Assembly (NCBI GenBank): GCA_026393535.1
Contig: JAPKZY010000037.1
Span: 1-64,000, forward strand
Direction of reading: 5' to 3'
From: Actinomycetota bacterium
GTDB taxonomy: Bacteria > Actinomycetota > Acidimicrobiia > Acidimicrobiales > Ilumatobacteraceae
DNA length: 64,000 nt
Shown one piece after another: positions 19,917 through 37,582 of the stretch. The position numbers were made by a program, and so were the translations under genes. Each line of letters begins with the position of its first letter. Within the stretch, counting starts at the first letter, position 1. The notes beneath the pieces are model-generated. The model did no database searches. It was not told where the DNA came from and saw only the letters and a list, made by a program, of their open reading frames with translations.

Positions 19917-21608
19917 TTACGAGTCCTTTAGGTGGCGTTCGTATGCGGCAAGGACCGCACGGAGAACCGCTGATGTGGTGTTCGGGTCTGTACCGAGGCC
20001 CCACAATGCGTCGCTATTGCCATTCTTCATTTCCACGTAGGCGACGGCCGTGGCTTCGGAACCTTGGCCCATTGCATGTTCGCTGTAATCAACAACGTCA
20101 ATCTTGGCGTTCAGTCCTTGGTTCACAGCATGGACAAATGCATCAACTGGTCCGTTTCCTTCGCCAGACACTGTGGTGTGAACGCCATCAATAACTAGCT
20201 GGGCGGTAATGGTGGTACGTGATGTGGCAGAGTCGCTGCGCATCTCGTGGCTATCAAGTTTGATGCGCGGCTCTTCTGGCAAATACTCAGCGCTAAATGC
20301 ATCCCAAATTGCAGTGGGGCTTACAACTGTTCCGGAATCTTCCGTGATGTGCTGAATGGTTTGTGAGAATTCAATCTGAAGCCGACGCGGCAGATCGAAA
20401 CCGTGTTCTTCTTTCATGATGTACGCAACGCCACCCTTGCCTGACTGGCTGTTGACGCGAATCACGGCTTCGTAGCTACGACCAACATGCTTCGGATCAA
20501 TTGGCAAGTAGGGAACTCCCCATTTGTCGTAGTCCTTTGAAAGCGCAGTAAGACCCTTCTTAATTGCATCTTGATGGCTTCCAGAAAACGAGGTGTACAC
20601 CAGATCGCCAACGTACGGATGACGTGCAGAGATATCCAAACGATTGCAGAATTCAGTTACTCGACGCAGTGAATCGATATCGGTGATATCAAGTTCGGGG
20701 TCAACGCCATTCATGAACATATTCATTGCGATATTGATGATGTCAACGTTTCCGGTGCGCTCACCGTTGCCGAACAATGTGCCTTCCACGCGGTCTGCGC
20801 CGGCCATGATGCCAAATTCTGCAGCAGCGGTAGCGGTACCACGGTCGTTATGGGGGTGCAGTGAAATCACAACAGTCTCGCGACGTGGAATATTGCGAAT
20901 GAACCATTCAATAACATCGCCGTACACGTTTGGTGTGTAGCACTCCACTGTTGCAGGCAAGTTCAACACCAACGGGTTCTCTTTTGTGGGCTTCAGTACA
21001 TCCATGACGGCTGTACAAATCTCAATGGCATATTCAGGTTCCGTCAGTGTGAAACTTTCGGGCGAATACTCATAGCGCACGTTGGTGCCGGCCAACATTG
21101 GTTCGAATCCCTGGCACAGTTTTGCTGCATCAACAGCAATTTTCGTGATCCCTGCTTTGTCCAATCCGAATACAACGTCACGTTGCAACGGATTTGTTGA
21201 GTTATAGAAATGGACAATGGCGTTCTTTGCGCCTTTCAGGCATTCGTAGGTGCGTTCAATCAATTCTGCTCGGCACTGAACCAATACTTGGATTGTGACG
21301 TCATCAGGAATGAGGTCTTCTTCAATAATCTGGCGAACGAAATCAAAGTCAGGCTGGCTCGCTGCCGGGAATCCGACTTCAATTTCCTTGAAGCCCATGT
21401 TGACAAGTGTTTTGAACATGCGCATCTTGCGCTCTGGGTCCATCGGGTCAATGAGGGCTTGGTTGCCGTCGCGCAAGTCAACACTGCACCACAACGGCGC
21501 CTTGGTGATGGTGGTGTTTGGCCATGTGCGGTCAGTGAGTACAACCGGAATGAAGGGGGTGTACTTGGCGAAAGCCATTTGTTTTGGTGTCACATTTTGT
21601 GGAGGCAT
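19917..21608 (-). CDS. leuA: 2-isopropylmalate synthase
   Basis: A 563-residue long LeuA of the actinobacterial/LeuA2 class. The start at 21608 (MPPQNVTPKQMAFAKYTPF) follows AAGGA; an upstream in-frame start would run into the attenuator hairpin. It has WCSVDLRDGNQALIDPMDPE (metal-binding Asp and the DGNQ motif), SLHPHNDRGTATAA (two metal His), GTLFGNGERTGNVD, and a C-terminal LeuA dimer domain (TTVSGEGNGPVDAFVHAVNQ) that binds leucine for feedback inhibition. It condenses acetyl-CoA with 2-ketoisovalerate, the first committed leucine step. Expression is predicted to be leucine-attenuated through the leader just upstream. Confidence 0.95.
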   Translation of the reverse strand: MPPQNVTPKQMAFAKYTPFIPVVLTDRTWPNTTITKAPLWCSVDLRDGNQALIDPMDPERKMRMFKTLVNMGFKEIEVGFPAASQPDFDFVRQIIEEDLIPDDVTIQVLVQCRAELIERTYECLKGAKNAIVHFYNSTNPLQRDVVFGLDKAGITKIAVDAAKLCQGFEPMLAGTNVRYEYSPESFTLTEPEYAIEICTAVMDVLKPTKENPLVLNLPATVECYTPNVYGDVIEWFIRNIPRRETVVISLHPHNDRGTATAAAEFGIMAGADRVEGTLFGNGERTGNVDIINIAMNMFMNGVDPELDITDIDSLRRVTEFCNRLDISARHPYVGDLVYTSFSGSHQDAIKKGLTALSKDYDKWGVPYLPIDPKHVGRSYEAVIRVNSQSGKGGVAYIMKEEHGFDLPRRLQIEFSQTIQHITEDSGTVVSPTAIWDAFSAEYLPEEPRIKLDSHEMRSDSATSRTTITAQLVIDGVHTTVSGEGNGPVDAFVHAVNQGLNAKIDVVDYSEHAMGQGSEATAVAYVEMKNGNSDALWGLGTDPNTTSAVLRAVLAAYERHLKDS

Positions 21609-21654
21609 TGTGGGTTCCTTGGATAGGGGTGGTGAGAAGAGAACTGTTCTGGAC

Positions 21655-21689
21655 AAAGAAAAAACCCCCTGACCAGAGGCAGGAGGTTT
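21655..21689 (-). terminator. leuA attenuator (intrinsic terminator in the leader)
   Basis: On the minus strand AAACCTCCTG (21689-21680) pairs with CAGGGGGTTT (21671-21662) over 10 bp with one G-U pair and an 8-nt loop, and six T residues begin within the right arm and run past it. It lies between the leucine leader peptide stop and the leuA start, 47 bp before leuA. This is the classic position of an attenuator: termination when leucyl-tRNA is plentiful, read-through when the ribosome stalls on the leader Leu codons. Confidence 0.8.
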
Positions 21690-21717
21690 CGACAGCAACG
21701 ATATGCGGCTGCTGCCG

Positions 21718-21750
21718 TTACATAAGGAGGAGCAGGTTCGTGCAAGTCAT
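21718..21750 (-). CDS. leuL: leu operon leader peptide
   Basis: A 10-codon ORF, ATG at 21750 and TAA at 21718-21720, coding MTCTNLLLLM with four consecutive Leu codons of three kinds (CTG CTC CTC CTT). It is followed 28 bp later by the terminator hairpin and then leuA. No Shine-Dalgarno is visible, but TAACCT lies 8 bp before the ATG, so the transcript is probably leaderless. The peptide has no expected function of its own; ribosome position over the Leu codons is the sensor. Confidence 0.82.
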   Translation of the reverse strand: MTCTNLLLLM

Positions 21751-21758
21751 TACGGCAA

Positions 21759-21764
21759 AGGTTA
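21759..21764 (-). promoter_or_regulatory. Putative -10 element for the leuL-leuA transcript
   Basis: On the minus strand TAACCT (21764-21759) fits TANNNT and ends 8 bp before the leuL ATG. No convincing -35 is present; a short GC-rich inverted stretch (ccccgacatcgggc) precedes it. Confidence 0.5.
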
Positions 21765-22008: not shown

Positions 22009-22281
22009 GAGAACTCCTCCCGTGAGGGTTGGGGGTTCGCCCGTGGCGGGTGGCGCACGCCGTTGTCAATGACCCGGTTCGTACGACTTTGCTCGGTGCT
22101 ATCCGTTAGTGGTTGGTCCTTTCTGTACGAGTATTTCTCGCATCAGGAATGGAAAAACTAACGCATAAAGGACTTTCTCACACCATTATTGACAAAAAAA
22201 TAAAGAAACTTTGAAGGCAATTGGTCAGTACTGGCGAGTAACCGTCTCAATTGGGCATATCGCGAGTACTGTGACCGCAAC
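22009..22281. other. Divergent intergenic region between the 50-residue protein and the DEAD-box helicase
   Basis: About 270 bp without an ORF I can support. The half nearest the small gene is GC-rich with short inverted stretches; the half nearest the helicase is A-rich (a run ttgacaaaaaaataaagaaac near 22188-22208). TACTGT at 22266-22271 lies 10 bp before the helicase ATG and could be its -10. A long untranslated leader for the helicase, as in cold-inducible RNA helicase genes, is possible but not shown. Confidence 0.4.
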
Positions 22282-23472
22282 ATGTCGATATCCCCAACGA
22301 CCAAACCCCGTATCTCAACCCCCACAGGCTTTGCCGCACTCGGCGTGCCAGACAATGTGGACCAGGGTTTAGCGGCAGCTGGTTTCTCCGCCCCATTTGC
22401 CATCCAAACCGAAGCCATCCCCGTAGCAATGCGCGGGCTTGATGTGTGCGGCCGAGCCAGAACAGGTTCAGGCAAGACGCTCGCGTTTGGTGTTCCGATG
22501 TTGGCACGTGCCGACAAATACGCACGCGTACGTGCACCACGTGGCCTTGTATTGGTACCAACTCGCGAACTTGCGTTACAAGTTGCTGAAGTGTTGCAAC
22601 CAATTGGCAAGGAATGTGACCGTGTCATTTTGCCGGTGTACGGCGGTGCTTCACGTGACGACCAAATTGATGCATTAGAAAAAGGCGTTGACATGATTGT
22701 TGCAACGCCATTGCGATTGATTGACCTTATGAAGGCCGGCGAACTTGTTCTTGACGATATTCAAGTAGTCACTCTTGACGAAGCTGACCGTATGGCAGAC
22801 GATGGGTTTACACCGCAAGTTGAGTGGATTCTTCGCCATGTCACAGGTGATCATCAGACCATGTTGTTCTCAGCAACTCTTGATGGCCAGGTAGGCAACT
22901 TAGTGAAGCGATACATGAAATCGCCTGAAGAAGTGTCTATTGACTCACCAACAGACACGGTCGGCACAATGCACCACTTGTTCCTTGGTGTTCACAAACT
23001 CGACAAAGACAAAGTCATCTCTGCGATTGCAACTTCTGCAGGGAAAACTGTGGTGTTCTGCGATACAAAGCGTTTATGCGACCGCGTGACTGAACACCTG
23101 CAAGATCTCGGTATCAATGCTCTCGCAATTCACGGAGATCTCACACAAGCAGCGCGTGAAAAAGCAATTGTCCGTTTCACGAATAATGAGCTGCTTGTTT
23201 TGGTTGCAACTGATGTTGCTGCACGCGGAATTGACATTGACGATGTCGCAGTAGTTATTCACTATGTACCACCGATTGATTCAAAGACGTACTTGCATCG
23301 CTCTGGTCGTACGGCACGTGCCGGACGTGATGGGTGGGCTGTCACTCTCGCTGAATACAACCAGCACACAACATGCCGCATTATCCAGCGTGCATTGCGT
23401 TTAGAAACGAACCCACCGATCGAGATCTTCTCGAACGACCATCGTCTCAAAACCCTCGACTCTTTCCTGTAG
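22282..23472 (+). CDS. DEAD-box ATP-dependent RNA helicase
   Basis: A 396-residue protein with all core motifs: Q motif region (GFAALGVPD...PFAIQTEAIP), motif I ARTGSGKT, Ia PTREL, GG, TPLRLIDLM, motif II DEAD, motif III SAT, then the second RecA domain with VATDVAARGIDI and motif VI HRSGRTARAGRDG. There is almost no C-terminal extension beyond the core, so it resembles the short RhlE-like class. It unwinds short RNA duplexes, typically in ribosome assembly or mRNA decay. It is divergent from the 50-residue gene. Confidence 0.92.
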   Translation: MSISPTTKPRISTPTGFAALGVPDNVDQGLAAAGFSAPFAIQTEAIPVAMRGLDVCGRARTGSGKTLAFGVPMLARADKYARVRAPRGLVLVPTRELALQVAEVLQPIGKECDRVILPVYGGASRDDQIDALEKGVDMIVATPLRLIDLMKAGELVLDDIQVVTLDEADRMADDGFTPQVEWILRHVTGDHQTMLFSATLDGQVGNLVKRYMKSPEEVSIDSPTDTVGTMHHLFLGVHKLDKDKVISAIATSAGKTVVFCDTKRLCDRVTEHLQDLGINALAIHGDLTQAAREKAIVRFTNNELLVLVATDVAARGIDIDDVAVVIHYVPPIDSKTYLHRSGRTARAGRDGWAVTLAEYNQHTTCRIIQRALRLETNPPIEIFSNDHRLKTLDSFL

Positions 23473-37516: not shown

Positions 37517-37582
37517 ATGTCAATCGCCAGCACTTCTCGCCGCCTCGTCGGCATCGCTGTCGCGATCATCATTATTCGTTAG
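37517..37582 (+). CDS. Isoleucine-rich leader peptide of cimA
   Basis: A 21-codon ORF: ATG 37517, TAG 37580-37582. It starts MSIASTSRRLVG and ends AVAIIIIR, with four consecutive Ile codons (ATC ATC ATT ATT) three codons from its stop and six Ile codons in all. A 7-bp hairpin begins at the stop codon (GCGCACG 37582-37588 with CGTGCGC 37600-37606), then comes a terminator and, 99 bp after the stop, cimA. TTGACG at 37481-37486 and GAGACT at 37505-37510 could be -35 and -10; the start of RNA would then be at the ATG. This is the arrangement of an amino-acid attenuator. Confidence 0.8.
   Translation: MSIASTSRRLVGIAVAIIIIR

Follow-up and report, generated by a model that had tools for sequence, protein, structure and literature searches.

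The leuA gene in the window, by which we mean the whole 64,000-nucleotide stretch of DNA analysed here, is preceded by what we judge from the sequence, with a probability of roughly 0.9, to be a ribosome-mediated leucine attenuator, organised around a hairpin (P1) that begins at the stop codon of a Leu-rich leader ORF and abuts an intrinsic terminator (T). We consider it probable that this attenuator reads out the position of the ribosome through the arms of P1, whatever the last step may be; our tentative proposal for that last step is that P1 would act as a ruler, setting the distance between ribosome and T without a base-pairing antiterminator. The original prediction of a leucine attenuator with a ten-residue leader at leuA is confirmed by the anatomy of the locus, in which the -10 hexamer, leader, T and leuA can be read directly, while the placement of P1 at the stop codon, and the finding of no detectable antiterminator in most of the order, go beyond it. 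The elements are as follows, in the order of transcription.

21759-21764, minus strand: -10 promoter hexamer TAACCT, ending 8 nt 5' of the leader ATG
21718-21750, minus strand: leader ORF MTCTNLLLLM-stop, ten codons, ATG at 21750
21690-21717, minus strand: hairpin P1, CGGCAGCAGC/GTTGCTGTCG, adjoining the leader stop codon and preceding the terminator
21659-21690, minus strand: intrinsic terminator T, AAACCTCCTG/CAGGGGGTTT, 10 bp, then six T at 21664-21659
21616-21620, minus strand: leuA Shine-Dalgarno AAGGA
19917-21608, minus strand: leuA, 2-isopropylmalate synthase (TIGR00970), 563 aa, ATG at 21608

TAACCT is a weak -10, and no good -35 is evident by eye. The four Leu codons of the leader (CTG CTC CTC CTT) occupy positions 16-27 counted from the ATG. 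T has a 7-bp core, CCTCCTG/CAGGGGG (21686-21680 / 21671-21665), and the outer three A-U pairs of its stem draw on the U-run. The leuA product scores 793 bits against TIGR00970, for which the cut-off is 697. When the window was scanned for short ORFs with a homopolymer of at least four residues within two codons of the stop, followed by a terminator, two matches were returned, the leuA and cimA leaders, and the same scan of six dinucleotide-shuffled windows returned none. A search of the window with Rfam 15 recovered two tRNAs only; at the leuA leader all scores fell far under gathering, with no family match, including to the enterobacterial leucine leader. Upstream of leuA and divergent from it lies a DEAD-box RNA helicase gene (22282-23472, plus strand), which scores under the curated cut-offs of the named subfamilies, and a 50-codon ORF on the minus strand (ATG at 22010) is situated between the two genes. 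In several relatives, the DNA 5' of the leuA leader is the end of an ORF terminating in WQFGNF.

Conservation was assessed in the leuA upstream regions of the window's genus and order, restricted to genes encoding LeuA of the window's type. The set comprised 27 genes and 80 more from the order, giving 106 after exclusion of G087, which has 7 nt of upstream DNA; G285, with 48 nt, was omitted from the counts. Usable LeuA was found at 27 loci of the first set (L028 is partial, and L029 and L030 are distant), and in the order survey 112 of 198 genomes had LeuA of the window's type at the cut-off used and 86 did not, 95 of the 112 being retrieved. All 106 usable upstream regions contain a Leu-rich leader; hence the Leu codons, the feature on whose retention in relatives the original prediction had staked itself, are kept throughout. 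The 106 divide into 91 leaders with the layout of the window (type A), which are not independent, 19 of them coming from the window's genus, and 15 leaders of another kind (type B: G040, G048, G050, G051, G095, G100, G101, G130, G131, G137, G163, G169, G189, G194 and G215), of which four (G050, G051, G169 and G100), overlooked or wrongly read in the pattern search, were assigned by eye.

Among type A leaders, 84 of 91 have a stem of at least 8 bp that starts at bases -2 to +1 relative to the stop codon; dinucleotide shuffles produce one in 1.0% of cases. P1, with 7-13 bp and beginning in or beside the leader stop codon, was identified in 87 of the 91, and the four leaders without a P1 of at least 7 bp were excluded from the geometry. 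The start of P1 falls at -2 to +1 in all 87 and at -1, the third base of the stop codon, in 52; the hairpin spans 20-32 nt and its end lies 0-7 nt from the T core. T itself, defined as a stem of at least 7 bp with at least four U in the next 8 nt, is found in 90 of 91 leaders and in 8% of shuffles. Several pair types occur between families at nearly all positions of both stems and, given that the stems were selected as paired, it is only this diversity of pair types that is informative. In a test comparing native with swapped segments, P1 and T stand out, and none of the other valid segment pairs does so in the pairing direction; since the arms of P1 and T had been selected for being paired, the result is partly circular for these two. 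Of the 91 sequences, 18 were excluded from this test: the 4 without a P1 of 7 bp and 14 from the window's family, which is over-sampled. RNAalifold applied to a MAFFT alignment recovered T and nothing else. Across type A leaders the loop of P1 is often CACAUA or GCAUAUC despite a changing stem.

Further contacts were considered and rejected. The P1 loop, which is CACAUA in many families, gave z of -0.05 to +0.11 for pairing with T in the swap test. The Leu run can pair with the 3' arm of T at a mean of -9.2 kcal/mol, yet the comparison of native with swapped segments gives z -0.12, and the sign would also be wrong, because the Leu run would be hidden under a stalled ribosome. A pairing of the P1 3' arm with the apex of T (GGYGC:GYGCC), seen by eye in several families, has z -0.02 and is absent in the window's genus.

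The leader ORF is likely to be leaderless, as far as can be judged from promoter spacing. Only the 53 leaders with a single possible ATG or GTG were used here, so that starts were not picked by the promoter; 46 of these are type A, from 18 families (12 are of the window's genus), and the rest are type B. In 51 of the 53, a distance of 6-10 nt separates the end of the best -10 hexamer from the start codon; in the other two it is 4 nt and 21 nt. Transcription starts approximately 6-7 nt past the -10, and hence this spacing implies that no more than a few bases of RNA precede the start codon. Among 14 ilvB leaders that likewise offer one start, 13 have a gap of 5-10 nt. Duplex energies with the anti-Shine-Dalgarno sequence average -2.24 for 46 leaders, -2.14 for random positions and -5.31 kcal/mol for 34 leuA starts, so that the leaders resemble random positions and carry no Shine-Dalgarno signal; in the window the values are -2.1 for the leader and -5.2 for leuA. 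The leaderless layout and the missing Shine-Dalgarno had both been described in the original prediction and are borne out, but its suggestion that such initiation is a novel variant is not sustained, there being precedents in Corynebacterium glutamicum, where the ilvBNC leader peptide is described as lacking a ribosome binding site (Morbach 2000), in mycobacteria, where leaderless polycysteine attenuator ORFs are reported for cys operons (Canestrari 2020), and in Sinorhizobium meliloti, where trpL is presented as a leaderless or RBS-less leader peptide (PMC7298713).

Codon choice in the leaders differs from that of the genes they precede. CTC and CTT together supply 75% of Leu codons in 78 leaders, counted with the window's family thinned, against 30-56% in ten leuA genes, and CTT alone supplies 33%, against 0-18%. 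These two codons are decoded by the same tRNA, and the Leu run therefore probably reads the charging state of that tRNA.

Ribosome states were modelled by folding the RNA with the ribosome-covered bases barred from pairing; coverage was taken as 15 nt past the first P-site base. In the window, the probability of P1 is 1.00, 1.00, 0.99 and 0.22 with the A site on the first to the fourth Leu codon, and 0.00 once the stop codon is in the A site; T has a probability of at least 0.90 in every state modelled. The same pattern extends to the 87 leaders: P1 exceeds 0.5 in 84 when the first Leu of the run occupies the A site, in 20 when the last does and in none when the stop codon does; T is above 0.5 in each of the 87, whatever the state. 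The distance from the stop codon to the T core has a median of 29 nt and is at least 27 nt in 71 of 87 leuA, 19 of 21 ilvB and 6 of 6 cimA leaders. With P1 folded, and counted in path lengths as of zero width, the first Leu codon is 8-21 nt from the T core in 87 of 87 leuA leaders, and the corresponding distances from first control codon to T are 16-23 nt for ilvB and 15-20 nt for cimA. According to PMC4824070, a ribosome less than about 27 nt from the hairpin blocks termination at tR2 in E. coli and a terminator more than about 30 nt past a stop codon works fully. This limit of about 27 nt, which derives from a fit to one terminator in E. coli, lies between the stop-state and the Leu-stall distances and so has the right sign for a ruler, although the distance from stop codon to T is below 27 nt in 16 of 87 leaders when measured to the T core and in 34 of 87 when measured to the full T stem.

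The mechanism that we tentatively propose would run as follows. When leucine is plentiful, the first ribosome would get to the stop codon and melt P1; standing about 29 nt before T, it would leave just enough room for T to form, and transcription would end. When leucine is scarce, the ribosome would stall in the Leu run and P1 would fold, taking up about 26 nt; along the RNA path a ribosome on the first Leu codon of the run would then be 8-21 nt from T, completion of the T hairpin would be blocked, and leuA would be transcribed. The role of P1 would thus be that of a ruler and not of a base-pairing antiterminator. Since termination is normally suppressed by a ribosome that follows RNA polymerase closely, the sign of such a mechanism depends on P1: because P1 would form or not according to where the ribosome stands, and because it occupies the stretch from stop codon to T, a stall could be told from arrival at the stop. 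The nearest parallel is pyrBI of E. coli, where, as PMC4824070 and PMC5021804 present it, a terminator is blocked by the proximity of a ribosome and not by an alternative RNA fold; in pyrBI, however, it is a closely following ribosome that gives read-through, whereas here a stalled one would do so, with P1 shortening the path. If the ruler is true, ribosome position alone, relayed via one hairpin, controls an intrinsic terminator.

An antiterminator was sought as upstream pairing of the 5' arm of T. In the E. coli attenuators thrL, leuL, trpL, hisL and pheL, which like the leaders described here combine a short ORF containing control codons with an intrinsic terminator and a following biosynthetic gene, the energy of upstream pairing by this arm is -12 to -23 kcal/mol (-23.4, -12.6, -12.0, -14.7 and -18.0 respectively), with z of -5.8, -1.2, -1.3, -3.4 and -6.0, that is, below -2 in 3 of 5; as a control these have limits, two of the five z being only -1.2 to -1.3 and the mostly longer upstream stretches favouring low raw energies. 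Type A leuA leaders differ, with a mean of -7.8 kcal/mol and a family-mean z of +0.13 (n=91), as do ilvB (-5.1 kcal/mol, z +0.41, n=21) and cimA (-7.7 kcal/mol, z +0.03, n=6), where z is below -2 in 0 of 21 and 0 of 6. What the leuA leaders have of their own, relative to the E. coli attenuators, is the stop-tied hairpin abutting T and a leader without a Shine-Dalgarno. The 3' arm of T pairs upstream more strongly than the 5' arm at all three genes in raw energies, and is not enriched at leuA (-13.0 kcal/mol, z -0.26, 5% below -2) or ilvB (-12.4 kcal/mol, z -0.09); at cimA it is somewhat enriched, with -14.7 kcal/mol and z -1.18, 2 of 6 being below -2 and the window's own cimA at -2.1.

The window's genus stands apart in this search and lends itself to a more conventional reading, a classical attenuator whose short antiterminator would consist of the P1 5' arm paired to the upper part of the T 5' arm (GGCAG:CUGCC in this genus). 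Of the 19 leaders here, 13 have z under -2 for the T 5' arm, and the window offers a candidate antiterminator between GGCAG of P1 and CTGCC of T at -8.7 kcal/mol (z -2.3 to -2.5); moreover, the model for C. glutamicum ilvBNC, as set out in PMC11857589, too rests on a very short GGC/GCC contact. We nevertheless regard this as a rather unlikely account, given that z is below -2 in only 1 of 72 leuA leaders from the rest of the order, that in the swap test the P1 5' arm gives z -0.05 with the T 5' arm and +0.23 with the T apex, and that P1 is made first and T of the window stays at 0.90 or above in every folded state. A weak base-pairing switch of this kind, GGCAG(P1):CTGCC(T), may operate in the window's own lineage, and for the window itself it is a genuine rival account, while the layout common to the order needs none. 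Alternatively, P1 might be a pause hairpin holding RNA polymerase for the first ribosome, as the 1:2 hairpin of trp pauses the polymerase until the ribosome arrives, with the leucine response exerted via another, unseen step. A pyrimidine-G step follows P1 at 9 nt in 41 of 87 leaders, at 10 nt in 30 and at 11 nt in 39 (counts that come without a chance level), and 9-11 nt approximates the spacing of known hairpin pauses, but pausing alone leaves the avoidance of T on starvation unexplained and would have no need of a P1 anchored at the stop codon, so we hold it to be unlikely.

Control after the manner of the LEU element of Actinobacteria, in which Seliverstov 2005 (PMC1262725) describes a pseudoknot and a stem between the Leu run and the Shine-Dalgarno, would place regulation at translation of leuA, through pairing of the Leu run with its Shine-Dalgarno. 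The two arrangements share a Leu-rich leader 5' of leuA; by eye, CUCCUU of the window can pair with AAGGA, and type B leaders of neighbouring families resemble the element. For the window's layout such control is very improbable nonetheless, in view of the conserved terminator that intervenes and of the pairing itself, which is not borne out by coevolution (z +0.08 in the swap test). That there is no regulation at all, T simply ending upstream transcription beside an incidental Leu ORF, is least credible of all, because cognate codons are conserved at leuA (Leu), ilvB (Leu/Val/Ile) and cimA (Ile).

The layout recurs at other genes of branched-chain amino acid synthesis. The original prediction had noted that the window also holds a similarly designed leader at cimA, and there too P1 stands at the stop codon and a terminator follows.

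37517-37582, plus strand: cimA leader MSIASTSRRLVGIAVAIIIIR-stop, with four Ile codons
37517-37638, plus strand: cimA sister element, whole

P1 of this element is GCGCACG/CGTGCGC, running from the third stop base, and its terminator, AGCCGCC/GGGCGGCT with a U-run, comes 5 nt after P1. Taking P1 only near the stop codon, with a start at -3 to +2 and a link to T of at most 5 nt, we found the layout in 6 of 30 cimA loci of the order, the window's among the 6 (the best 30 of 128 genomes with a match), and in 22 of 30 ilvB loci (the best 30 of 89 genomes with a match), these being the best-scoring 30 in each case and not a random sample; 21 of the 22 ilvB loci, with a P1 of at least 6 bp, entered the statistics. 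A stem of at least 8 bp at the stop codon occurs in 19 of 25 ilvB leader candidates against 0.4% of shuffles, and in 4 of 8 cimA leader candidates against 1.6%. P1 sequences vary between leuA, ilvB and cimA. The ilvB leaders (L173-L202) contain Leu/Val/Ile runs, with GCGCACGC/GCGTGCGC a frequent P1 and CGACCTCCC/GGGAGGTCG a frequent T. In a phylum-wide search for ilvB, the layout appeared in 0 of the best-scoring 30 loci, 29 of which come from other classes.

Within the class, 13 usable leuA loci were available from other orders: a Leu-run leader with a terminator is present in 12, P1 starts at -1 to +2 relative to the stop codon in 11, and the whole layout, with P1 at the stop and T 0-4 nt later, occurs in 10, the exceptions including G228, where the script detected no short-loop P1, and G338, whose T it placed 16 nt on. 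G274, a divergent LeuA of another order, has no leader upstream. Outside the class, 10 of 12 leuA upstream regions from the phylum contain Leu-run leaders that agree with the LEU element as described, and at the 11 loci there with an LLL leader no terminator was found within 100 nt of the leader stop. We put forward with some reserve, as a possibility with the odds against it, that the class harbours a family of branched-chain amino acid attenuators without alternative RNA structure, in which a stop-anchored hairpin would serve as the ruler and be melted by a ribosome at the stop.

Leaderless or RBS-less leader peptides are already known, as are leuA leaders in Actinomycetota, such as that of C. 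glutamicum, for which PMC4046766 reports four consecutive Leu codons. The C. glutamicum ilvBNC and leuA leaders are the closest in kind, both belonging to branched-chain amino acid genes of Actinomycetota, the one with a leader peptide described as having no ribosome binding site and the other with a Leu run; unlike the layout described here, ilvBNC is portrayed in PMC11857589 with overlapping antiantiterminator, antiterminator and terminator hairpins. The mycobacterial polycysteine ORFs (Canestrari 2020) are likewise leaderless control ORFs with cognate codons, but for cysteine, and Seliverstov 2005 (PMC1262725) speaks of no obvious terminators at the mycobacterial cys operons. The stop-anchored P1 followed by T had no description that we could find in the open-licence literature, in a search that was not exhaustive, and by that literature it is a new form of ribosome-mediated attenuation. 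It is set apart from the classical three-hairpin type because an antiterminator was sought and not found in most of the order: textbook attenuation consists of two mutually exclusive folds, whereas two hairpins stand here side by side, without competition, at leuA, ilvB and cimA.

Type B leaders (loci L027, L087, L089-L092, L094, L096, L097, L099, L102, L104-L107 and L125-L130) end in LxLRLxxPA or similar, and six further genomes of the order are all of this type by eye. In several of these loci, again by eye, AAGUCG-like bases beside the leuA Shine-Dalgarno offer a pairing partner for the codons around CGACUU, and there is seemingly a hairpin across the stop codon. In some families type B thus looks like translational control replacing the terminator, and the occurrence of types A and B in different families of one order is a natural case of one gene swapping modes of RNA control. 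LeuA sequences 98-100% identical to that of the window also occur on contigs titled Bifidobacterium breve (L208, L210 and L214), titles which are probably wrong labels of metagenome bins.
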